In this document: piece by piece, positions 17,313-48,251 of the stretch | Numbering within the stretch: position 1 is the stretch's first letter | Layout of the letters: each line of letters starts with the position of its first letter | The notes under the pieces: model-generated | The model's database searches: none | What the model was told of the DNA's origin: nothing | What the model saw: only the letters and a program-made list of their open reading frames with translations | Made by a program: the position numbers and the translations under genes | DNA from: Fragilariopsis cylindrus CCMP1102 | Lineage: Eukaryota > Bacillariophyta > Bacillariophyceae > Bacillariales > Bacillariaceae | Length of the DNA stretch: 64,000 nucleotides | Reading direction: 5' to 3' | NCBI GenBank assembly: GCA_900095095.1 | Contig: FMBT01000441.1 | Coordinates: 39,631 to 103,630, forward strand

Positions 17313-19781
17313 TCATTCGATATAAAATTTGTGTTGACCATTATAATGTATTTTCGATTGTTTCGGATAACAAGTGGAACATAAATCATAATCAAAACAT
17401 ATTGAACATTTATATATCATTTTATTGTTATTGCCATTTACAATACTACCAGTATTATTTATTATTTGAGAACATCCATCACAATTTGCAATTTCTTCAT
17501 AAGTTGTTGTTGTTGTTTCTTCTTGTTCCTGTTCTTGATCTTGATCTGTGTCGTGGTCGTCATCTCTATTACTATTAGTCCTGTCTTTCTTGCTGTTATT
17601 AGTAGTGGTGGCGAATAGTGACGACGAAGCAGACATAAAATCAGCCCCAGGAAATACAATTATACGTTCTGGTGGAATTTTACCAATATTAATATTACTT
17701 CCAATATCATCATCGTCATCATCATCATCATCATCATCGTCATCGTCGTGTTCGCCTTTACCACTTTTCTTGTGTGTGTTTTCATCTCGAAGAACCGTTG
17801 TTAATAGTCTTGCTGAAGCGTCTGATGCGGCGTATCTATTACTATTATTATTAATATTCATGCTGGGTCGTGGTGTTGGTGTTGGTGTAGTTTTAGCTGC
17901 TCTATTCTTCCTTTTTCCATTGCTCTTATTGTTACTGTTGCTCTTATTATTATTGTGCATGTTGGTGTTGTTAGTAGTAGTATCAAAACCTAATCCTAAT
18001 TGTTTCCCTAATGCACGTGATATATCATCACAATAACCTAATAGGTAACTATCAAATACATAATCCTTACGAAAATCTATATCCTCATTGTCATTACTAT
18101 CATCATCGTAATTTTGTTTTTGTTTTTTTGGTACTTTAATATTTGGTGTTTTATTAATTAATATTCTTGGTATATTTGTTGGTAAATAGTCGATAACTTT
18201 GGATATTGGTGCCACACTTAAGGATGTACCAATCACAATTAATGCATCAACTTTTTGACGATCATATTCAATACGTTTACTGACATGATTTGATAAATTT
18301 TCACCAAAAAATGTGATACTCGGTTTTAATATACCATTGCAATAATTAGTACTGTCATTATGTTCCTGTTGTGGATACTCGTCATTGTCATTGTCGATGC
18401 CTCCTGATACAGAACGACAACGTTTTCTTATGTTTCTACTACTTGTCCTACTAGGTGATGGGAATGGAGAAGATGCTAAGTTGGATGATGTAGTAGACAT
18501 GCCGTTTTTCTTCTTCTTCTTCTTCTGAGAATTTTGTTTTGATGGTTCTTTGCAATACGGAACGGATCCTGTTTGAATTGATGACATGAAATGTTTTCTA
18601 TTGTTGTCATCGTTCTTATCTTCTTCCCCTTTTGAATCCTCTGATCCTGTTGTTGTCGAACTTGGTGGTGGTGGTGGTGGTGTTGCTGTTGTATTAAAAC
18701 TGTGATTACAACGTAAACACTTTACTTGTTTTAAGGAACCATGACAATACACAATTTTGGATTCGGATACACCTGCTACAGATTCGAATCCATCAATATT
18801 TTGTGTATAGACACGTAATAACATTTTCTTTTTTTCTAATAATGCTAAAAATTTATGTGAATCACTTACGACTGTTGTTTTTGTTTCATTTCCAATAGTT
18901 TCAATTTGTGTTTGTATTTTGTTACCGATCTTATCGGTGGTTCTTTCTTCTTTTTCTTTTTCTTCTTCCTTCTTTTTCAATTTTTGATTCCTCGTATTAT
19001 TATATGTCGCAGCATTCGTCCTCGTCTCTATTTTAGTTTTCTTTTTCATGTTGTTTGTGACTACTACAGCAGTTGTTGATACACCGTCATCATCTTCCTT
19101 CTGTACTATGTCATCCTTCTTCTTGTTCTTATTCAATTTTGGATAATATAATTGTTTTGCAAATTTATAAAATGGTCTTGGATTATCTTTGAAAAATTCA
19201 ATACAAAATAAATCTTCGGGACAACTTAATCCTAATTCATTACGGTCTAATGTATTATATAAACCAATATCTTTGGATCGAAAATCTGGAATACCTAAAC
19301 TTGTGGATATACCAGCACCAACTAATACTACAATATTCTTTTTAAATTTTAATAAATTACAAACATTTTCAAATACATCATCCACTGTGTTAATCTCAGT
19401 ATCATCATCGTCATCATCGTCAACATTTTTGTTACCGTCATTGTTAATGCTTGCAGGGAATTTTCGGGATGGAGGTCGAACCGTTAAATCATATGGCGGA
19501 CGAAGAGCACAACAATCTGTTGGTGGTGGCGGTGGTGGTTTTTCCTTCCTATTATTTTTACGGATTGATTTTTTCATCTTGATATTAGTTCCTGTTCCTC
19601 CTCCCGTTACACCTCCTCCGTCGTCAGCAGCAATAACAGCAGCGGCAAAACCCGAAACAGTAGTCAAAGATCTACTACTAGTACATGTAGATTTCTTCTT
19701 TGTCATGTTTTTATGGTTACTGTATATATAAGTTATGGTTGCTATATTGCATGCCTTCTCCCCTTCGTCGTCATCATCCAC
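17313..19781 (-). CDS. Sirtuin (Sir2) deacylase with C-terminal ZZ zinc finger
   Basis: Up to 822 residues in one intact frame. NAD-binding GAGISTSLGIPDFR lies near residue 155, the TQNIDGFE motif and catalytic His in YCHGS near 330-345, and zinc ligands in CLRC, PYC and NYC. KPSITFFGENL, VIGTSLSVAP and INKTPN follow. Sirtuins remove acyl groups from lysines using NAD. Large low-complexity inserts (Lys/Glu, Thr, Pro, Asp) interrupt the catalytic core. The C-terminus is a ZZ-type finger: CDGC, CSIC, DLCSTCY and two His. The ZZ finger may recognise histone or N-terminal peptides, suggesting a chromatin role. A later Met (MTKKKS, at 19706) is a more plausible start than the first Met at 19781. 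The start is uncertain, the enzyme call is firm. Confidence 0.85.
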   Translation of the reverse strand: MDDDDEGEKACNIATITYIYSNHKNMTKKKSTCTSSRSLTTVSGFAAAVIAADDGGGVTGGGTGTNIKMKKSIRKNNRKEKPPPPPPTDCCALRPPYDLTVRPPSRKFPASINNDGNKNVDDDDDDDTEINTVDDVFENVCNLLKFKKNIVVLVGAGISTSLGIPDFRSKDIGLYNTLDRNELGLSCPEDLFCIEFFKDNPRPFYKFAKQLYYPKLNKNKKKDDIVQKEDDDGVSTTAVVVTNNMKKKTKIETRTNAATYNNTRNQKLKKKEEEKEKEERTTDKIGNKIQTQIETIGNETKTTVVSDSHKFLALLEKKKMLLRVYTQNIDGFESVAGVSESKIVYCHGSLKQVKCLRCNHSFNTTATPPPPPPSSTTTGSEDSKGEEDKNDDNNRKHFMSSIQTGSVPYCKEPSKQNSQKKKKKKNGMSTTSSNLASSPFPSPSRTSSRNIRKRCRSVSGGIDNDNDEYPQQEHNDSTNYCNGILKPSITFFGENLSNHVSKRIEYDRQKVDALIVIGTSLSVAPISKVIDYLPTNIPRILINKTPNIKVPKKQKQNYDDDSNDNEDIDFRKDYVFDSYLLGYCDDISRALGKQLGLGFDTTTNNTNMHNNNKSNSNNKSNGKRKNRAAKTTPTPTPRPSMNINNNSNRYAASDASARLLTTVLRDENTHKKSGKGEHDDDDDDDDDDDDDDIGSNINIGKIPPERIIVFPGADFMSASSSLFATTTNNSKKDRTNSNRDDDHDTDQDQEQEQEETTTTTYEEIANCDGCSQIINNTGSIVNGNNNKMIYKCSICFDYDLCSTCYPKQSKIHYNGQHKFYIE

Positions 19782-19890
19782 ACCTTAATTGTCGTCGTCA
19801 ACAGACGTCTGGAGAGCCCGCGATTGGACAAATTACAATCGAGTCGCGCGTGTTTAAAAAATTTGGCGAGCGTGGAGGGCGCCCGGTAAT
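19782..19890. other. 5' region of the sirtuin gene
   Basis: Short spacer between the sirtuin start and the composite repeat; holds CG-rich words (GAGTCGCGCGTG). Confidence 0.5.
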
Positions 19891-36002: not shown

Positions 36003-38160
36003 TTAACTTTTCTATTTGGGGGACTTCCTGAAAACCTAGTGTTTCTAATTAACTATTTTTTGAATCTCTAAAATTAGTGTAACTGGTTGTAATTAATAAT
36101 CCCCCCAAATTAGCATAGAGGGGGCCCCGAAAATCAAATGTATTTGGGGTCACAACAATTTGTAGTGGACAAAATATTTCGTACAAAAATATTGTTTATG
36201 TACTACAATACACTAATATCTTGTTTGAAAGTGTTGCAGAGGACAACACTGGATGGGTTGGGTGTAGTAACATCCACATAGTGGACTAGAACATTGTGTT
36301 TGCCTCCAGCAACTTTTCTATTCCTGTGGTTGAGGAATAAAACTCATTTTGCTGTTGTGGAAGGCACACAAGAAAAAAAACTAACTGATTTTTGATAAGA
36401 GATAAACCACAAAATATCTTGTTTGAAAGTGTTGCAGAGGACAACACTGGATGGGTTGGGTGTAGTAGCATCCACATAGTGGACTAGAACATTGTGTTTG
36501 CCTCCAGCAACTTTTCCATTCCTATGGTTGAGGAATAAAACTCATTTTGCTCCTGTGGAAGGCACACAAAAAAAAACTAACTGATTTTTGATAAGGGTTA
36601 GGGTCCATGTAGTAGCATCCACATAGTGGACTAGAACATTGTGTTTGCCTCCTGCAACTTTTCTATTCCTGTGGTTGAGGAATAAAATTCATTTCACTTT
36701 TATGGCAGACACACAAAGAACATGATTTTTGATAGAAATTTATTGAACACAAAATATCTCATTTGAAAGGATTGCAGACAACAAAAACAGATGGGTCTAG
36801 CGCGCAAACATTCTGAAAGCGCACTTGAACATTTTACTTTCCTCCTACTATCCCTGGTGGTCCATCATCACTTCACTATAGTAATTCTGATTGGTATCAT
36901 CTTTCACTCACAATTTTCTCTCACAAAATCTCCAGTGGAGTTTGGTTACTGGAGTATTAAACAACTTTGAATAATAAGATGAATAGCTTCTCCTTAGGTT
37001 CTACAACCAGCATGGTGCACCAAAATACCACCCAGTCATCCATCTCATCCCCATAGGGGATGAACCAAGGGTCATGATCCCTCATACATACCTTACAACA
37101 TTGCATTTTGGCCAATATGTCATATTTCCATGCCCAAAGTATCATTCAGAAATAGGCTGCAATAACATCAAAAGGGAATGGACCATGGTTTGAACACTCT
37201 GATACCTTTCATATGCATATGGTCAAAACACATTAATCATACTTGAACATTTGCCATATTGGTGGTGTGCTGGGGTGGGGAACATTAAAATAGACATAAA
37301 ATAGCCCAAAATGCACACATTGAAAAAATATATGAGATGCTACCGCATCCATACCAGGTATGTTGAGTCCCAAATAAATAGCTAGGCATCAGCATAATTC
37401 ATAAAGGTTTTTGATTCTATCATTGCTTAGGTATTCATACATATATTTGGGGTGTCACGGGTCAAAACCAACCGCTATTAAAACACACAATTTCTCTAAG
37501 TGCCAAGTGCGCATGTAATCAAGGCCGTGATGCACCATCAATGCAGACCTAATAACTTTGAAAGACTATATGGAGCTCAACATTATACCTATGGGTACAA
37601 GGTCCAACTATTGCTTAGGGCTGTAGGGAGGTTAGGAAGGTGTCAAGGTGTGCTAAGCCCCAAAAAGGGTCATTTAGGCCCCAAAACAGGTTTTCCCCCT
37701 TTAGCGCCCACATCAGCATGGTCCTGCTCATAGCTTGCCAAGTTTATATTGCCCTTGGTATAACGGTTAACCCCATGTGCTTACTTTGGGATCTTTCATC
37801 CCTTTGAGTGTGTACTAGGTCACATACCCCCCCAAATGGGCCATTTTCCCATGTCCTAGGCTGCATCACACCCTTTGCTTCACCACCTTCAAGTGTGATA
37901 AACACATACCTAGAGCCCAAAGTCTGGTCCAGGTATCCACCCTATGCATATTAAGCTCAGATTATACCATCTAATTGGGACTTTATACATGCTAGGATTG
38001 GTTAGAATGCCAGAAAGTGAAGTGTTACAGCTACAGGTAGCAAGTACCACAGGACATGATTTAGTGTTTTTAAAATAAAAATAAATAAGTACAAGTCTTT
38101 CCTTTGACGAGAAGTTGCCGGTGTTGATAAATAAGACTTTTTTTGCACAAAAGTCTTCGT
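36003..38160. repeat. 2-kb dispersed repeat, copy 1
   Basis: About 2 kb matching 61730-63655 in the same orientation over nearly all its length. Shared landmarks in order: AACTTTTCTATT; AATAATCCCCC-AAATTAGCATAGAG; GTGTTGCAGAGGACAACACTGG; GGTTCTACAACCAGCATGG; ATACCTATG-GTACAAGGTCC; GGTCATTTAGGCCCCAAAAC; CCAGAAAGTG; a T-rich end with AAAAGTCTT. No long frame and no recognised protein, so it is a non-coding or long-dead mobile element. It contains an internal array (next entry). It ends about 60 bp before the MAPEG gene and may supply that gene's promoter. Confidence 0.85.
36207..36830. repeat. About 198-bp tandem array inside the dispersed repeat
   Basis: Units begin AAAATATCTTGTTTGAAAGT near 36213, 36411 and 36750. 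They contain ACATAGTGGACTAGAACATT and TTCCTGTGGTTGAGGAATAAA; one partial unit starts near 36605. The second copy of the element (62096-62390) carries about two units of the same array, so unit number differs between copies. Confidence 0.8.
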
Positions 38161-38219
38161 GTTTTAATCAAAACTAAAAGCGCAGAAACTCATCAACACC
38201 ACAATAAAGAATCATTATC

Positions 38220-38731
38220 ATGGACGGATACGACACTCCCTGTTTGTACCAGCTACAAGCTCCTTCTTTCTGGTCGTGGGTGTGGCCACTGCCATCAAAG
38301 AACAAGTCAAGTCGCGGTATGCTGCCAAGGATGATAATGGAAAGCCACTCTACGAGCACCCCTACCGACCCTGGATCGAGATTGACCCCAAATACAAGGA
38401 ACAAGGAGACAGGGCTTGGAGAGCCTTTAAAATGTGCGAAAATGTCAAGGAATGGACCGTCTTTAGTATGCCATTGGTATGGATTATTGCTATGTTTGGA
38501 AGCTCGCTGCCATATGTCGAGGATTCGTATGTCAACTACTTCTTGGCAGCAACCAGTGTCCTATACGCTTATGCGAACCACCAATTCATTTTTGGATACT
38601 TGGAATCACCAGAGAAGCGCATGAAGGGCTTTAAGCTACGCATGCTAGTCTTCAAGCTATGGTTGCTGGGATCTGGACTATCCTTGTTGGGATATGGTCT
38701 GACTACTGCCGCAGCGAAGCTTTCTGCATAG
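38220..38731 (+). CDS. MAPEG-family membrane protein
   Basis: About 170 residues. After MDGYDTP the frame must shift near 38241, as if one C were missing from a CCC run. Reading then continues LFVPATSSFFLVVGVATAIK (first membrane segment), a polar loop, and the MAPEG core: AWRAFKMCENVKEWTVFSMP, LVWIIAMFGSS, YFLAATSVLYAYANHQFIFG, and a last segment (LWLLGSGLSLLGYGLTTAA). The CEN-KEW-F-P and R/N-H-Y-G-Y patterns match membrane-associated proteins in eicosanoid and glutathione metabolism: microsomal glutathione S-transferase, leukotriene C4 synthase and FLAP. Codons are clearly richer in C/G at third positions than neighbours. It starts about 60 bp after the end of the dispersed repeat. Confidence 0.65.
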
Positions 38732-38907
38732 GATAGGATAGCGATGAAACAACAAAGATCAACAACAAGTACTACCACTTAAACAGATTTAAAAAAAAAA
38801 CTGGCGCTAGTACTTGTAGTATAAATTAATTGTGCTTTATTTTATTTTACTATTTGCTTTATATATTTTACTATTTATTTATATTATATATACTTTATTT
38901 TACTATT

Positions 38908-40430
38908 TTATTTATTATGCAATCCATCCCATTCATCAATTGTCATTGATTTACCAGTTTGTACACGTAACCATCGACCATGTAATTCTTCATTATCACA
39001 TTTCGATACACAATCTAATGCAGCTTTGGGACTTGCAAAGTATATACCACAATATCCTTTACTACGATTGGAATCTTCAAATTTTGGAAATAATACAGAT
39101 TTAATTAAATGCTGTTGTTGAGTTTGATCTTTTGAATTATCACCACTACCATTACCATTACCTCCTAACTTTGATTGAATAAATTCTTTAATATCATTTT
39201 CGGTTGTATCATAATTTAATCCAAATACACGTACACATAATGGTTGTTTTTCTTTTCTATTATTTCCTCCTTGATAATTACTATTTGTATTTGATCTCTT
39301 GTTGGAAACATCGCCGTCGTCTTCGTCTTCGTGATTATCATTATCATGTTTACGTTTTTTACTATTTTGTTTTGTTTTAATTGCCTTCTTATCAAGTGCA
39401 ATCTTTTGTAATTCTAAATCATGTTTGTATACACATTTATCACCCTTACGACATTTACCTTTTGTTTTCCAATTAATACAATCCTTTAATGAATTTGGAA
39501 TTTTACTTTTACTTTTGGTACTTTCAGACTTGTTGTTGGACCTGTCATCATCTTTCTTCGTGTTGTCGTTCTTTTTTTCTGATTCTGGTACTACACATTC
39601 AAAATCATGTGAATATAAACATTCGTCACCCTTCTCACATTTGCCTTTCTTTTTATAGATAAAACATTTACCATTCCTTTTTCTTTTAATTTGTTTTAAT
39701 TCTTCTGGTGTTAAATCTTCATCTTTTTTTAAACAACTACCAATTCCTACATGACGAAATTTACAGTCGTTCCCATATGGACAACGATGTAAATTCCATA
39801 AATAACAGATATCTCTTGCATTATTAGTATTTGCATTATCACTACTACTTGTTGCTGCACCTTCTTCTTTCTTATCACCACCATTTTCATTTTCATTATC
39901 ATCATCATCATATGTGATTGCAACATAGGGACGTAAATACATGGTATATAATTTTTTGGATGTGACTTTACGTCCACCACGTATCGTTTGTAATTTTAAT
40001 GCATCATCGCGATATTTTTCTGTGGAAAATATAATAAAACCAAATCCACGATGTTCAACATCAATGCCATGTTCTCTATCCAAATTACGTTTCTTTATTT
40101 CCTCTTCTTTATCTTTGGAGGATCTTGGTACTTTACTTTCATTATTATCATCATTATTATCATCATCATCATGAGGATAGATCAATTCAACTTTTCAATA
40201 ATGTTCGTATCATTACTACTATTACTACTGTCAGTAGTAGTTCCTGTTTCTGTTGTTCCTGCTAACATCATTTTTTCAATAAGGATTCGTTTCACAGTAT
40301 CTTCTGTAAATTTCGTCGGTACACGTCCAATATATATTTTATGTGTATACTTTTCTTCATCCGGATTATCATTATCATTCGCTGTTGCTGCCGCATCGTC
40401 GTTTTTTTCTTCGTCGTCGTAATTTGTCAT
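38908..40430 (-). CDS. RNA-binding protein: RRM, three CCCH fingers, RRM
   Basis: About 505 residues. RRM1 starts KIYIGRVPTKFTEDTVKRIL and ends RGFGFIIFSTEKYRDDAL. Three CX8CX5CX3H fingers follow: CYLWNLHRCPYGNDCKFRH, CFIYKKKGKCEKGDECLYSH and CINWKTKGKCRKGDKCVYKH. RRM2 begins LCVRVFGLNYDTTENDI and ends GYCGIYFASPKAALDCV with RWLRVQTG. Such combinations bind RNA in processing or decay. The frame breaks at about 40186, acting as one missing base, and splits RRM1; bridging it joins strand 1 to the RNP1-like GFGFIIF. Acidic and Lys-rich linkers suggest nuclear location. Start: Met before DDEEKND, as in many acidic diatom N-termini. Confidence 0.8.
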
Positions 40431-41039
40431 AGTGCAGTGTAGTGTTGTTGCTGATGCTGTTGCTGATGCTGTTGCTGTTGCTGTTGCTGCTGATGATGCT
40501 GACTTCTGCGATTTCGATTTCGTTGAAAACGTTAGGTCAGGTATAAGTAAGTATGTGTATAACAGTAGTAACCGGTACAGTAGTATCGTCTCTTGATAAA
40601 GTTTGATCTATCCTGTCCGCTTTAACGTCCTTCTCGTCGTGCTGTCGCTGTCTGATCTCTGTGTATCATGTGAATGAAAAAGTAAAAAGTAAAATATAAA
40701 CAAGAAAGAATAGCAAGCCAAAGTAAAAAAGCAAGAAGGAAAAAACGCAACAATTATTTGAATGGTCAGCGCCGAAGCAAAATGTCCGTCCGTCCATCAT
40801 CCATGAAACAATCGAATTGTAATCGAATCACGAATATATCGCTCGGGAATCAAAAACATCATTCCATCGCTCACATCGTCAATCGGATAGAAAAAGAAGA
40901 AAGCAAGAAAAAAAAGTACTCTCCTTCCGAGTCAAGAAAAAGAAAAAGAGGAAGAGAAAGAGGAAAGATACGAATATAAGTAATTACACATGCATACAGT
41001 AAGACACAACAGGCAGGAGTGATATGAGGAGGATGCTGG
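40431..41039. other. Divergent upstream region
   Basis: Between the RRM/CCCH gene (minus) and the UvrBC gene (plus). A GCTGTT/GATGCT repeat lies near 40440-40505. A 74-codon Lys/Arg-rich frame at 40758-40979 is not supported by any recognised feature. Confidence 0.5.
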
Positions 41040-44000
41040 ATGACGACAATAACAATAACAATGGTGGCAACTGTTACGAAAACGCCAGGAAATTTTGAAT
41101 ACTGTCACAGATATCATTCCAGAAGTAGAATAAGACAACGACGACAAATAAGACGTCGTGTTCTAATAGCTTTTGTTGGTTTCATAATAATGTTAGGAAT
41201 AATCATGAAAAACAACGTTACTCTTAATCGTAGTAGTAGTAGTGCTACTCGTCGTTTTAGTAATAACAATTATTATTATTATTACTGTCATGCATTTTCA
41301 CCCTCATCAATGCCATCGACAACGACAAGGCATACGTCGCCGACGCATACGCATAATAGCCGGAATTGGGGCGTTAGTCAAATCCATTTACAACAACAAC
41401 TACAGAATCAACAGAATAAATGGCGGAGTAGTATTAGTACACAATATTTTTCAACAGCAACAGCAACTGCAACAGCAACAGCAACTGCAACAGCAGCCGA
41501 AGAAGATGTATTAATAGCTACTTCATTAGAATCAGCTACTACTACTACTACTACAACTATCACCACCAATAGCACCACTAATACCAAAAGTAAAAGTAAT
41601 AGAGCAGTATGGGATAATATGTATAGACTTCTTGTCAAATACAAAAAAAGGGAAGGACATTGCAATGTACCAAATATGTACAAAGAAGAAAAAGAAAAAA
41701 GGAATGGAGTAGGAGGAGGAGAAAATCTCGGAAAGTGGTTGGTATACCAACGACGATCCAAGACGAAAGGTACACTTGATTCTTATAGAGAAGAACAACT
41801 TGATAAGATTGGTATGGTATGGGATATGAAAGCACAACAATGGGACGATATGTTCACACTACTTGTGAAGTATAAAGAGAGAGAAGGAGACTGTAATGTA
41901 CCAGTTCGGTATAAGGAAGTAGACGTAGATGGAGAGGCGAAGAAGAAACAAAAATCTTGGTAAGTGGTTAATTAGACAACGATATGTCAAAAAGATGGGA
42001 AACTTGATCCTTTCAAAGAAGAACGATTGATGGATGTAGGTATTGTTTGGGATTTATTTTCGCACCAATGGGAAGATATGTTTACAATGCTTGTTCAGTA
42101 CAAGCAAAGAGAAGGTGATTGTTATGTACCTATTCGATATACTATAACAGAAGATGGAGGGGAAAAAAAATCTTGGACGATGGTTAGGACAACAACGACG
42201 GCGTCAAAAGATAGGAAAACTTGATGCACCTTACAACATCGTTTAGATGATCTTGGTGTTGCTTGGGATACAAATAGATTAAGTGTAATGCAATGTATAC
42301 AACAACAACACAACAACAACAACAAAGAAATGAGGGAGTACTATAGCGTAGACGATAACGTCGACAATGTCATACATACCAAGCGTGATCGTTCTTCTAA
42401 AACCGATATTCAAGAGTACCAAAGTAACAAGGACGATGATACCATCTTGCACAGAAACAGTACGGCTCTTGATTATAATACTAACAGTCGATGGGTGGAG
42501 ATAACATGGGTGGAGGATAAATGGAACGTCGATAATATCACCATCGATAAAGACCACAACAACAACGTCGGCAGTAGAAAAGTCGATGACGACGGTCAGG
42601 AAAAGAATCGAATACCAATATGATGATGATGATGAAAAAAAATCATCAACAAATTGAAGTCAGAATCAAACTTATTTGAAATTACTTCACCGTATGGACC
42701 AATGGGAGATCAACCAAAGGCGATATCGAAACTCGTCAAACAAATAAATCGTGATGATAAATATTCTGTGTTAAGAGGTTGTACTGGGACAGGTAAAACT
42801 TTGTTATGTCGCAGGTAATTGCACAGACGAATAAACCCGCATTAATTTATGTCATAATAAATCATTAGCAGCCCAACTTGCACGAGAATTACAGTCTCAT
42901 TTACGGAATAATCATATCCGATTATTTGTTTCCTATTACAATCATTACAAACCAGAATATTACGATCCAATTCATAACAAATATGGTTCCAAAAAATCAA
43001 GTGTCAATGATGAATTAGATGCATTACGACATTTAGCAACTGAATCATTATTACAACACAAGGATGTTGTTATTGTGGCATCTGTTTCTTGTATATACGG
43101 ACTCGGAATGCCACAAGCGTATATGGATGCAAGTGTTAGATACACCGTCGGTGATACTATTATTGTGGGGAAACAAAACGGTATGAGAAATAATGGTTTA
43201 GATACGATCCAAACGAAACTTGAATCACTTCTGTATGTAACACCAGAGCGATCAATTGGAGGCGATTCCACCATGACAAGTGACGCAGAAGATCTAGGAA
43301 GGGGTTGTTATTACTGGTCGTATCATAGTCGTGGTACCATATCAAGTTTAATGATATGGCCTCCATCAGAACGGTATCCAGTAAGAATTGATTTCGAAAC
43401 GCAACAAAAGCACCCGCCGTCCTCAACGTCACAGTCGTCATCCTCATCATTAACAGCATCGCAGTCAACAATGTATACAATTTCTTCTATATATCATGGA
43501 AATTCGAAAGGGATGGTACCGATGGAATCAACCACGATATTCCCCGCAAAGCATCATATCTCTGGTACGAAAGAAGAATTTGAAGAATCTTTAAAACGAA
43601 TCGAAGATGAAGTAGCCGAACGATACAAGGAGTTATGTAATGCATCAAAGAAAGAGGAGGCTGATCGGATATCAAAACGTGTTGCTCAAGATTTAGCGTT
43701 GTTGCGAGAGACAGGAACATGCCCTGGTATTGAAAATTATAGTCGACATATGGCTCTTAAAGATGCGAATGTTCCACCCAGTACACTACTGGACTATTTT
43801 GGATTGATCAATGGTGACGACGACAATGATGATGATGACGAAGGAAGTAGCGACGAAATCAAAATCAATGATGATTGGCTCCTCGTGGTGGATGAATCAC
43901 ACGTAACGATCCCTCAATTGAAGGCTATGTACGGGGGAGATCGTGCAAGGAAAGAAAAACTTGTAGAGCACGGGTATAGACTTCCTTCTGCATTAGACAA

Positions 44001-46942
44001 CCGTCCATTACGAAGCGAGGAATTTTGGGAACGTATCCCTCAAACATTATTCGTCTCGGCAACTCCATCACAACGAGAATTAGATTTGATCTCAAATATT
44101 CCCGATAATGAACCTGTTGATATGATGATACGACCGACGTTCGTATGTGATCCACATATTGAAGTCCGACCGATAGAAAACCAACTCGAAGATTTGGTGA
44201 AAGAAATATCCGATCGATCGAAACGTAATGAACGGACCTTAGCGATGACAGTAACAAAACGCGACGCGGAAGACCTTGCTACGTATTTGATTGCAACCGG
44301 TGGTGTCAACGCAATGTATATACATTCAGGTCTAAACACACATGAAAGATCGAAGGCATTACAAGCTTTACAAAGTGGCGAAATCGATTGTTTGGTCGGT
44401 GTAAATCTTTTGAGAGAAGGATTGGATTTACCACAAGTGAGTTTGGTTGCAATATTGAACGCAGATTTTGAAGGGTTTTTACGATCTGAAACCGCGTTAT
44501 TGCAAACGATTGGACGTGCCGCACGGAACATAAACGGGAAAGCGATTTTTTATGCTAATAAAATCACACGTAGCATGAAAAAATGCATGGACGCAACAGA
44601 ATCTCGAAGGAAGGCACAACTCGACTACAATTTGAAGAACAATAAAGAAATGAAATCCACACAAGGTTCTTCGACACAATCCATCTTTGATCTACTCAAA
44701 GACCAAATTGATGCGGGAAAACAACGACGTCAGGCATCGACCACCGCCAAAGTTGGTATTGACGTGATCACTTCGCCATTGGAAGGCGGTTCGGCGGCTG
44801 TTTCTTCCCTTTATCCTGCGGTACAATCCCCACAGGGTAGCAAAGGCAATAATATCGTGACCGATCATCTGCCGAGCAAGCCGGGAGTTTACTTTTGGAA
44901 AGATGAGGACGAAAACATTCTATACATCGGAAAGGCGAAGAAATTACGTAGCAGGGTAAAGTCTTACCTAAATCCTGGAGCGAAGCACAGCCCTCGAATA
45001 CGAACAATGGTACAGAAATCTCATTCGGTTGAATTTATTTTAACACCATCTGATCGCGATGCACTCATATTAGAAGATAAATTGATAAAGCACCACCAAC
45101 CATTGTATAATGTTCTGTTAAAGGATGATGAATCATATCCATACATATGTGCGACCGTAGGTGATGAATTCCCATCTTTTACGATCGTGCCGAGGAAATT
45201 GGATGGAGGACAAACTTCAGAATATCGCTATTTTGGTCCGTACCCACATTATTCCGAGATAAATAAAATGTTAGATGGGATCGAAGAAAAGTATAGCCTG
45301 AGATCGATTGCCTTTCAAGCTCGCCATGGAACGATGAAAAAAATGGAATACCAAAAGATATTTCTTCAAGCACTCGATGAAATCTTTGATCCTAATACTG
45401 ATACCACTACAACGGCAAGTAGTAGTAACATCAGCACAGAAGATAAAGCCGACGACTTGGCACATATGCGAACACGGTACGAAGAGGCATCTATGCTATT
45501 TGATTCTGATAGTAACAAATCTCGAGATGTTGTTGCTGTGGGGAAAAGTGATGATGGGTCTACAACTGTTATCTACGTCTTGCAGCTTCGGGATGGTATG
45601 GTGCGTTTTGTGATAATAAATGAAGTGCATATGTATTCGTGGAAGCGTCACGTATTTTTTTGTGTGGTATGTGGATCGAATTCATGAAAAGTGGATTCTC
45701 ACATTTTATTCTCGCTTTTTTGTCGCTTTCTCCTTCTACGTGTCGTCCGTGGCATCCTCAAATAAAGGTAACGGGACAGTTTTCGTACAATTGCGAGGTT
45801 GCATCGGAACTACAAACAGAAGAAGAACTTGCAGATGCGATGCAACGTATCCTTCAGTACCATCATTATCCATCGGGTGCAACACCAATGCATAACAATC
45901 GATCCTTTTTTCCTACAGATATTCTAGTTCAATATCCGATACAAGAAATTAATGAGTTGAAAAAGGTTATTTCATCTACACGAAAGTTTGTAGAACCTTC
46001 AGCATTTACTGCTAAGAGCAAGAAACAACAACACAAAGTCTCGATCCGTAAACCCGCAAATCGTGGTGCACGAAAAGAAACGGACCGTCGAGCACTCCAA
46101 TGTGCAATCGATAATGCTGTACAGGTTGCAAATGAAAAGGCTTTGATAGCGAAATCGGAGAATAATAATGTTCCAGTAAGTTCAGTTGACGGTACAGCGA
46201 TGAACGAATTGAAGGAGATGTTGTCTCTAGAGAAGGATCCACGACGTATCGAATGTTATGATATAAGTCATACACAGGGAGAAAATACCGTCGGTTCAAG
46301 AGTTGTTTTCATTGATGGAAAACCAGTACCTAGTTTATATCGTACGTTCAATATCAAGAGCGTACCAATGGAAAACCAGATGACTATAAAAGTCTTGAGG
46401 AGGTATTAGAACGACGATTCCATAGAGTTTGGAAGAAGGAGACGAATAGTAACCACAACCTTCAACTGGTCGATGAAAACGATCCATGGTCGATGCCCGA
46501 TCTTGTAATTATCGATGGAGGGAAAGGTCAACTAAGTGCCGCGTTAAAGGGTATGTCTCGAGCCAATATTCTTCCATACGAACAAAATAGTAATAATTCC
46601 GAAGAAACATCCAATGTGTTGGAGGTAGAAGATGACGATGACGATCATCAATATGAAAATGATGATCATTCTATCATGGAGGAAGCTCATTATTCCTCCT
46701 CGTCGCCGTCGCCGTCATCGCCAACATCACTACTTGGTTCTTCTTTACATGTTGCAAGGGTTCCCATCGTAGCTCTTGCAAAGAAAAGAGAGGAAGTTTT
46801 TGTAAACAATAACTCGAATCCTGTGAATACAAATTCGAATGATGCAAAAATGTTACTATTGCGATCCTTACGAGATGAAAGTCATCGATTCGCATTAAAT
46901 GCAATGAAAAGACGACGACGGAAAATGAATGGCGGATTTTAG
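41040..46942 (+). CDS. uvrB-uvrC: Helicase-associated-repeat / UvrB / UvrC fusion
   Basis: About 1,900 residues in one plus-strand gene. The N-terminus is hydrophobic then Ser/Thr-rich with an AF-type site (CHAF-SPSS), possibly plastid targeting. Three helicase-associated repeats (about 41605-42280) carry [24 protein letters not shown] and QREGDCYVP. UvrB follows: [13 protein letters not shown], Walker A GCTGTGKT (42780), [14 protein letters not shown] motif [42 protein letters not shown]. UvrC comes next: GIY-YIG nuclease ([26 protein letters not shown], catalytic Glu in LEDKLIK), then an RNase H-like nuclease with [28 protein letters not shown] and RDESHRFA. One intron is at 45601-45767. 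Frame breaks near 41952, 42002, 42168, 42230, 42610-42660, 42800, 42848 and 46372 lie between perfectly conserved motifs. The helix-hairpin-helix tail of UvrC is absent. Confidence 0.8.
45601..45767 (+). other. Intron in the UvrC part of the fusion
   Basis: Donor GGTATG/GTGCGT, acceptor AATAAAG/GTAACG. Splicing joins LQLRDGM to [14 protein letters not shown], restoring the expected UvrC sequence in phase. Its presence shows that this is a nuclear eukaryotic gene. Confidence 0.8.
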
Positions 46943-47494: not shown

Positions 47495-48251
47495 TTATTG
47501 AAAATCTTTATTCAAAAAATCTAATCCTTCACCAACTGCTGGATGGAATCTCCATACTTGATGTCCCTCAATAGTATTTGTTGCTTTATTTTTATTATTT
47601 GGTGACGAACTAACCTCATGTGACACTTGTATTAATTCTTTTACACGATCACCTGCATCATTATATACCACTGATAAACTGGATGTCATGATAATCATAC
47701 CGGATACCTTTTCAACTTCATTAATCATGATAGTATCAGGACTCATTTCAGTTACCACCATAAAAACAGGACCACTAGAACTAGTACCATCCTCATTTTT
47801 TGATTTTGGTGAATCTAATCTCATTGATGGGTATTCAATCCGAGCACGTGTGCCTCTGTTTGATATATTGTTGTGTAAAGAGATAGACGGAGAGAGTTAT
47901 AACAGTCAAGATTGTGAGTATCAGCCAAGCAATACAATAAAAGAGCAAACAAATTAAGAATACATATATATTCATATCCATCATACGGTAATTCCAATAA
48001 AACTGAATCTACATATTGTTAAAAGGGGTCTAATCCTTTCAGACTGGTGCCAGTATACTTGTAATCAATTGGATATAATATAACATCATGCACATACACT
48101 CATGCACACACCCACAAAGACTTTTTAATATTCATCATACGGTAATTCCAATAAAACTGAATCTACATGTTGTTAAAAGGGGTCTAATCCTTTTCAGACT
48201 GGTGCCAGTATACTTGTAATCAATTGAATAATAATAAATATATCTTCTCAA

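Follow-up and report, generated by a model that had tools for sequence, protein, structure and literature searches.

In bacteria, domain 4 of UvrB suppresses the ATPase of the protein until UvrA and single-stranded DNA relieve the suppression, and contact between segments of UvrB and UvrC is needed for the 3' cut, according to the portion of PMC7835731 drawn on here. A route without UvrA has a precedent: as related in the cited part of PMC5814901, Escherichia coli UvrBC finds and binds damage without UvrA, extra UvrC improves the survival of uvrA E. coli at low ultraviolet doses, and UvrBC was shown to cut damaged duplex only when this was pre-nicked or contained a bubble. A 2006 survey counted 318 UvrC proteins, 310 of them bacterial, 8 archaeal and none eukaryotic (PMC1564403, in the part used here), and in the section of a 2020 review cited here nucleotide excision repair (NER) was described as seemingly absent from organelles and flowering plants as encoding no UvrA, UvrB or UvrC (PMC6981420). 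The present analysis concerns a locus at 41040-46942 on the plus strand of a 64,000-nucleotide stretch of Fragilariopsis cylindrus CCMP1102 DNA (hereafter the window; contig FMBT01000441.1, C525:39631-103630, in a 67.9-Mb genome of 818 contigs), where a UvrB helicase and a UvrC nuclease share one reading frame. We read it, with a probability of about 0.55, as a diatom nuclear gene encoding an excision nuclease in one chain that derives from the fused UvrB and UvrC of the plastid ancestor, would load without UvrA and is probably targeted to the plastid.

The helicase motifs and the GIY-YIG and RNase H-like motif residues of the diatom protein were the same as in cyanobacterial-type UvrB and UvrC of the UvrABC system. 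It differed from bacterial UvrB and UvrC in being one chain, in lacking the UVR motifs, a recognisable UvrA-binding domain, the cysteine cluster and the helix-hairpin-helix, and in that no UvrA was found; it is built of UvrB and UvrC, yet two features of UvrB and three of UvrC were looked for and not recognised. With the UvrA-independent UvrBC of E. coli it would share the action of UvrB and UvrC on damage without UvrA, as is proposed for the diatom; the E. coli pair, in the part of PMC5814901 cited, consists of two proteins that UVR motifs hold together, and the cell ordinarily contains UvrA, whereas the diatom link is covalent and without UVR motifs. The diatom resembles Arabidopsis, with its chloroplast-predicted TRCF/Mfd homologue, in combining an Mfd-type protein that has a plastid-like presequence with no detected UvrA but, unlike the flowering plants as portrayed in the cited section of PMC6981420, it keeps UvrB and UvrC, fused. 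Some UvrC domains are lacking here as in Cho and other UvrC-like proteins; Cho-type proteins, in the account of PMC1564403 used here, are without the RNase H-like (EndoV) part and unjoined to UvrB, whereas the diatom protein retains that part and is joined. The preliminary description of this locus knew of no described UvrBC fusion with N-terminal helicase-associated repeats. Among the entries listed from the open-access full-text literature searched, none was on point concerning a UvrB-UvrC fusion or concerning UvrB or UvrC in diatoms or plastids.

The joined UvrB-UvrC frame

A stop-to-stop open reading frame (ORF) of 950 amino acids was present at 42835-45687, 922 codons of which (42835-45600) lie 5' of an intron donor. 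This single frame covered the UvrB helicase and went on into the GIY-YIG nuclease of UvrC; past the intron, the coding sequence continued into the UvrC RNase H-like nuclease. The preliminary description had reported a eukaryotic UvrB joined to UvrC without a stop at 43075-45600; that join is real, and the frame is longer than was claimed. When compared to NCBIfam, the ORF scored 577.5 bits with the uvrB model TIGR00631 and 161.4 bits with the uvrC model TIGR00194, far above chance on one ORF; the former score was under the curated cut-off of 750.1 because the first 55 UvrB residues sit in another frame.

The UvrB part began with an N-terminal segment carrying Walker A at 42675-42839 (C525:82305-82469; model positions 2-56, with one stop inside), followed by the beta-hairpin part at 42844-43161 (model positions 59-164), a diverged domain 2 region with insertions at 43162-43473, which binds UvrA in bacteria, and the helicase core through the end of domain 3 at 43474-44727 (model positions 219-608 of 658), after which the expected UVR motif was missing. 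An in-frame linker (44728-44865) led to the N-terminal part of UvrC with the GIY-YIG nuclease at 44866-45315 (model positions 7-149). The cysteine cluster and UVR motif expected at 45325-45450 were both missing. The intron that had been noted inside the UvrC part was confirmed as a spliceosomal-type GT-AG intron of 167 bp in phase 0 at 45601-45767; after splicing, PF22920, which represents the N-terminal side of the RNase H-like region in UvrC, was matched at E=5.2e-5 with 23.6 bits (curated cut-off 24.3). The RNase H-like nuclease followed in two pieces, the first with the motif ECYDISH at 45768-46352 and the second in the next frame at 46353-46942, ending in a stop codon with no helix-hairpin-helix after it.

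In the genome search, TIGR00194 gave four matches, all at this locus, and TIGR00631 gave 26. Three of the latter belonged to the fusion (459.8 bits, then 117.2 and 42.2 bits for the beta-hairpin and N-terminal parts); the other 23 scored at most 34.6 bits and aligned only with the C-terminal, helicase half of the model. The fusion was the only UvrB and the only UvrC detected in the genome.

Both families are bacterial and some bacteria have tandem uvrB and uvrC genes, so the locus might come from bacterial contamination or from bacterial uvrB and uvrC wrongly joined during assembly. This is extremely improbable. Contamination was ruled out by the intron inside UvrC, by the silicon transporters that identify the genome as that of a diatom (PF03842, 27 genome matches, best 756.9 bits), and by the upstream neighbours, which are shared with the other haplotype (contig C296). 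Nor did any record, among 72,556 from plasmids and 50,697 from phages, reach 80% coverage of the query at a single location. Of the 113 UvrB ORFs in 117 loci, none also matched UvrC, and the UvrC open frames were no longer than 802 amino acids in 30/30 bacterial genomes. The genome scan kept the best 80 of at least 586 stretches, so rare fusions could have been missed.

A prokaryotic origin of the fusion itself was sought and not found among the stretches kept: the best genome match (L034) and three loci that also matched beyond UvrB (L054, L056 and L106) have separate uvrB and uvrC genes, which in L034, L054 and L106 are in tandem yet separate. In the acidobacterial tandem (L034:3318-7157), 36 bases lie between the two genes, which by their coordinates are in the same frame; such an arrangement may offer a ready path to a fusion. 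A viral origin was also rejected, since the first viral scan found no relative and the second found 37 loci with UvrB matches, none of them joined to UvrC.

Features kept and lost, UvrA and ancestry

The helicase core of UvrB was present, with Walker A, DESH and the C-terminal helicase motifs. Domain 2 was not recognised on the diatom ORF by PF17757 (UvrB_inter) at E≤10, while a cyanobacterial control UvrB (L040) scored 118.4 bits; faint similarity was still visible in the alignment. The UVR motif of domain 4 (PF02151) was also absent from the diatom UvrB at E≤10 (38.7 bits in the same control). Identity to seven cyanobacteria was determined over four regions for the window and, as a reference, for 77 other bacterial rows. 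The diatom means were 0.531 for the hairpin part, 0.245 for domain 2, 0.503 for the next part and 0.550 for domain 3, compared with averages of 0.729, 0.431, 0.576 and 0.661 for the reference rows; in relative terms domain 2 was the most reduced region. On these comparisons, the UvrA-docking domain of UvrB is eroded.

In the UvrC half, 42 of 53 columns that are near-invariant among 34 bacterial UvrC rows were kept, those of the GIY-YIG and RNase H-like motifs included. Of the 11 columns that had changed, eight fell within the cysteine cluster and UVR stretch, which is largely deleted, and three cysteines near-invariant in the 34 bacteria lie inside the deletion. The GIY-YIG nuclease matched PF01541 at 38.1 bits with its motif columns kept; the RNase H-like nuclease matched PF08459 in two pieces (66.5 and 84.8 bits) with the columns of its conserved D, D, D and H residues also kept. 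These profile matches and motif columns support the fusion described earlier, with the helicase motifs and the motif sets of the two nucleases preserved. No UVR motif was found in the diatom UvrC pieces at E≤10, and the motif was present in 3/3 bacterial control UvrC proteins: the two cyanobacterial controls (L154 and L155) scored 35.7 and 40.7 bits for UVR and 38.9 and 37.7 bits for HHH_2, and the acidobacterial control had UVR and a weak HHH_5. The UvrC of a proteobacterial metagenome-assembled genome (L056:5830-7425) stops, as the diatom protein does, right past the RNase H-like domain without a helix-hairpin-helix; this element is therefore not universal in UvrC.

A genome search for uvrA, suggested in the preliminary description, was carried out with three profiles and did not detect UvrA. 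With TIGR00630, the best 10 of 43 candidates were scored and gave 10 weak matches, none above 37.7 bits, and the ORF of the strongest reads, by eye, as a transmembrane ABC transporter; PF17755 and PF17760 had no genome match at E≤1, although each was positive in 13/14 control genomes. Mfd was recovered by the same method at 540.3 bits. This match (C40:89736-91789, locus L183, C40:88600-91800) covered model positions 291-905 of 907 only. The ORF preceding it carried a hydrophobic stretch near the first methionine, an A-F pair and low-complexity sequence, followed by PF02559, the domain that binds RNA polymerase, at residues 338-441 of the stop-to-stop ORF. No UvrB-homology module, through which UvrA docks, was present upstream of Mfd, and there was no other forward ORF of 120 amino acids in the 2.1 kb fetched upstream; PF17757 matched nowhere in the genome, with 12/14 control genomes positive. 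The hydrophobic Mfd N-terminus with its A-F pair resembles a plastid presequence. The failure to find UvrA, the Mfd without a docking module and the eroded domain 2 of UvrB point the same way, towards independence from UvrA.

Alternatively, a UvrA split into many short exons or lost in an assembly gap may have been missed, in which case the fusion would work in an ordinary UvrABC pathway. The 818-contig assembly may be incomplete, and the profile search treats each exon separately and scores the top candidates alone. Three profiles failed, however, where other plastid-type genes were recovered, and the UvrA-docking domains are eroded in UvrB and missing from Mfd; a missed UvrA is accordingly quite improbable.

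The best identity to cyanobacteria was 47% for UvrB and 36% for UvrC. In a tree of 85 UvrB sequences, the smallest starred set that included the window comprised nine rows, namely the window, seven cyanobacteria and an unclassified bacterium (L052), with a Shimodaira-Hasegawa-like approximate likelihood ratio test value of 100. In a second, careful tree with 32 rows, the same nine were split from the other 23 by a branch with support of 94/98, just below a star, and the smallest starred set comprised 11 rows. The UvrC tree, built with 34 bacterial rows of which 30 came from genomes that had also supplied a UvrB, placed the window as sister to seven cyanobacteria (88/86); the unclassified bacterium of the UvrB tree branched next (87/98). 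Because the two halves cluster with cyanobacteria, they are best read as descending from the plastid ancestor; the placement is probable rather than certain, because the window branches are very long.

Upstream repeats, presequence and one-base shifts

Helicase-associated (HA) repeats (PF03457) lie upstream of UvrB on the same strand. The first complete repeat was at 41601-41816 (C525:81231-81446, 67.2 bits), and more followed at 41817-42280 in several frames via one-base shifts, with two stretches in the ORF at 41028-41963 and one (42060-42152) in the ORF at 41976-42224. A low-complexity linker of 132 open codons at 42225-42620, in the frame of the UvrB start, was followed in that frame by five TGA codons at 42621-42635. 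Before the repeats, hydropathy and motif position indicated a putative N-terminal presequence at 41040-41330, with a hydrophobic segment at about 41160-41204 (from residue 41) and an A-F pair at 41292-41297 (residue 85). Diatom plastid targeting uses a signal peptide followed closely by an ASAFAP-like motif, as set out in the part of PMC4329603 cited here. The two elements are about 40 residues apart in the putative UvrBC presequence, further apart than in Mfd (residues 19 and 46), and it appears to match this pattern only loosely.

The whole span of 41040-46942, which had been presented as one gene, was not a single open frame: UvrB and UvrC do share a frame, but one-base shifts and the TGA run interrupt the remainder. 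The motifs GDQPKAI and GCTGTGKT lay 5' of two one-base shifts (near 42813 and 42843) just past the UvrB Walker A, and a further shift near 46353 preceded the UvrC motifs VIIDGGKGQ and RDESHRFA. The proposal that the fusion carries N-terminal HA repeats was upheld as to position and orientation; their membership in the same protein is likely rather than certain, as one-base shifts and the five TGA codons intervene.

These interruptions raise the alternative that the HA repeats and UvrBC are two adjacent genes, with UvrBC starting near a run of ATG codons at about 42620 and having no presequence, which would be compatible with a real fusion. PF03457 is very abundant in this genome (583 candidates; 150/150 of the best that were scored were above the cut-off), so a separate HA gene next door would not be absurd. 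Against two genes, the 132-codon linker stays open in the frame of the UvrB start, the TGA run could be removed by six candidate GT-AG introns, each of a length divisible by 3, and there is no ATG in the linker frame from the TGA run to the first UvrB residues; a plastid-bound protein of cyanobacterial type would also be expected to need an upstream presequence. We regard the two-gene arrangement as doubtful, and a single, putative protein with HA repeats and UvrBC as likelier.

A DNA search identified C296 as the other haplotype. It matched the window over 38000-42040 at 87% and stopped there, inside the HA part, and is therefore uninformative on UvrBC. Near 38228 and 40190, in two ORFs next to the gene, the window lacked single bases that are present in C296, and the HA-part shifts were not the same in the two copies; for these reasons assembly error, not decay, is probably the cause of the one-base shifts. 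Some silicon transporter matches were also split into adjacent frames (C600, C639 and C77). A PALP-family gene in the window, a cysteine synthase by eye, was free of shifts, which weighs against the assembly-error explanation and implies that any such errors are patchy.

Identity between the window and C296 (L188) was approximately 76% in the HA part (41330-42039), compared with 94-98% in the preceding genes and spacer, and the HA part looks as if its repeats were hypervariable or exchanged with paralogues. Elsewhere in the window, a dispersed repeat at 38000-38190 had more than 30 genome places at 76-89% identity, another at 47976-48082 matched C195 (98%) and C756 (89%), and one ORF on the minus strand at 17316-19784 combined a Sir2 domain with a ZZ zinc finger (PF02146 and PF00569).

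Proposed function and its significance

If the gene encodes a single-chain excision nuclease, covalent fusion would make the UVR handshake between UvrB and UvrC unnecessary, and loss of UvrB domain 4 would remove the brake that is normally released with the help of UvrA; in a fusion without UVR motifs both the relief of domain 4 and the separate contact for the 3' cut would no longer be needed. The protein may load without UvrA at distorted or melted DNA, for example where stalled plastid RNA polymerase is cleared by Mfd. Strand verification would fall to UvrB, with the two tethered nuclease domains, GIY-YIG and RNase H-like, cutting on either side of the lesion. HA repeats, if part of the protein, could supply the DNA binding otherwise provided by UvrA and the UvrC helix-hairpin-helix; the latter must be replaced, perhaps by these repeats, or else the 5' cut would be lost. 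A plastid location is suggested by the ancestry and by an Mfd with a plastid-like presequence. Of the plastid role raised in the preliminary description, the cyanobacterial, hence probably plastid, ancestry of both halves held up; targeting is no more than probable, and the presequence fits the diatom pattern loosely. More tentatively, diatom plastids may carry out UvrA-free NER on one polypeptide, with the HA repeats as the DNA-loading part in place of UvrA and the UvrC helix-hairpin-helix, UvrB verification and both UvrC cuts in cis, and the shortened Mfd supplying melted sites where plastid RNA polymerase has stalled.

Several observations weigh against an excision nuclease of this kind. 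The UvrB beta-hairpin aligned with four tyrosines kept, but the fifth was changed to H, and substitutions also occurred at D, Q, A, I and E positions where 84 bacteria show no or almost no variation; this hairpin, on its aligned residues, counts against an unchanged lesion sensor. The diatom UvrB was below the lowest of the 77 bacterial rows in all four regions, so that the whole of UvrB appears fast-evolving and the first expectation, that erosion was confined to domain 2, was dropped. The window branches in the trees were very long (3.7-3.9 and 2.2). The UvrC chain ended after RDESHRFA with no helix-hairpin-helix family matched at E≤10, an element described as needed for the 5' cut in the portion of PMC7835731 used here, and the part of PMC5814901 cited reports no evidence of damage excision by UvrBC alone. 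One-base shifts occurred in the HA part (several), in UvrB and in UvrC. C296, otherwise of the same layout as the window, carried an in-frame stop within the presequence, and over 41064-41960 the two copies differed at 74, 51 and 67 sites at codon positions 1, 2 and 3, with no third-position excess, a count blurred by the shifts in C296. Lastly, it is possible that UvrA sits in an assembly gap.

Much of this would suit a real fusion that performs no excision repair, being either a fast-evolving nuclease or translocase for another plastid task, such as DNA turnover or recombination, or a gene in slow decay: the altered hairpin, the low identity throughout UvrB, the missing helix-hairpin-helix, cysteine cluster and UVR motifs, the long branches and the one-base shifts would all fit. 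Against it, the motif columns of both nucleases, the helicase motifs and 922 open codons are kept, and the shifts look like assembly errors, given that bases present in C296 are lost from neighbouring ORFs as well. We consider another task or slow decay unlikely, and a repair nuclease of plastid ancestry remains the preferred interpretation.

If diatom plastids do carry out UvrA-free NER on one polypeptide, this would be an organellar excision-repair pathway where none has been recognised, and a counterpart in nature of the route by UvrBC alone that is observed in E. coli deleted for uvrA. A one-chain UvrB-UvrC without a detected UvrA, and without the docking surfaces for it on UvrB and Mfd, would show that excision repair is reducible to verification and incision, and the question of whether UvrBC repairs DNA without UvrA would become testable with a single protein.

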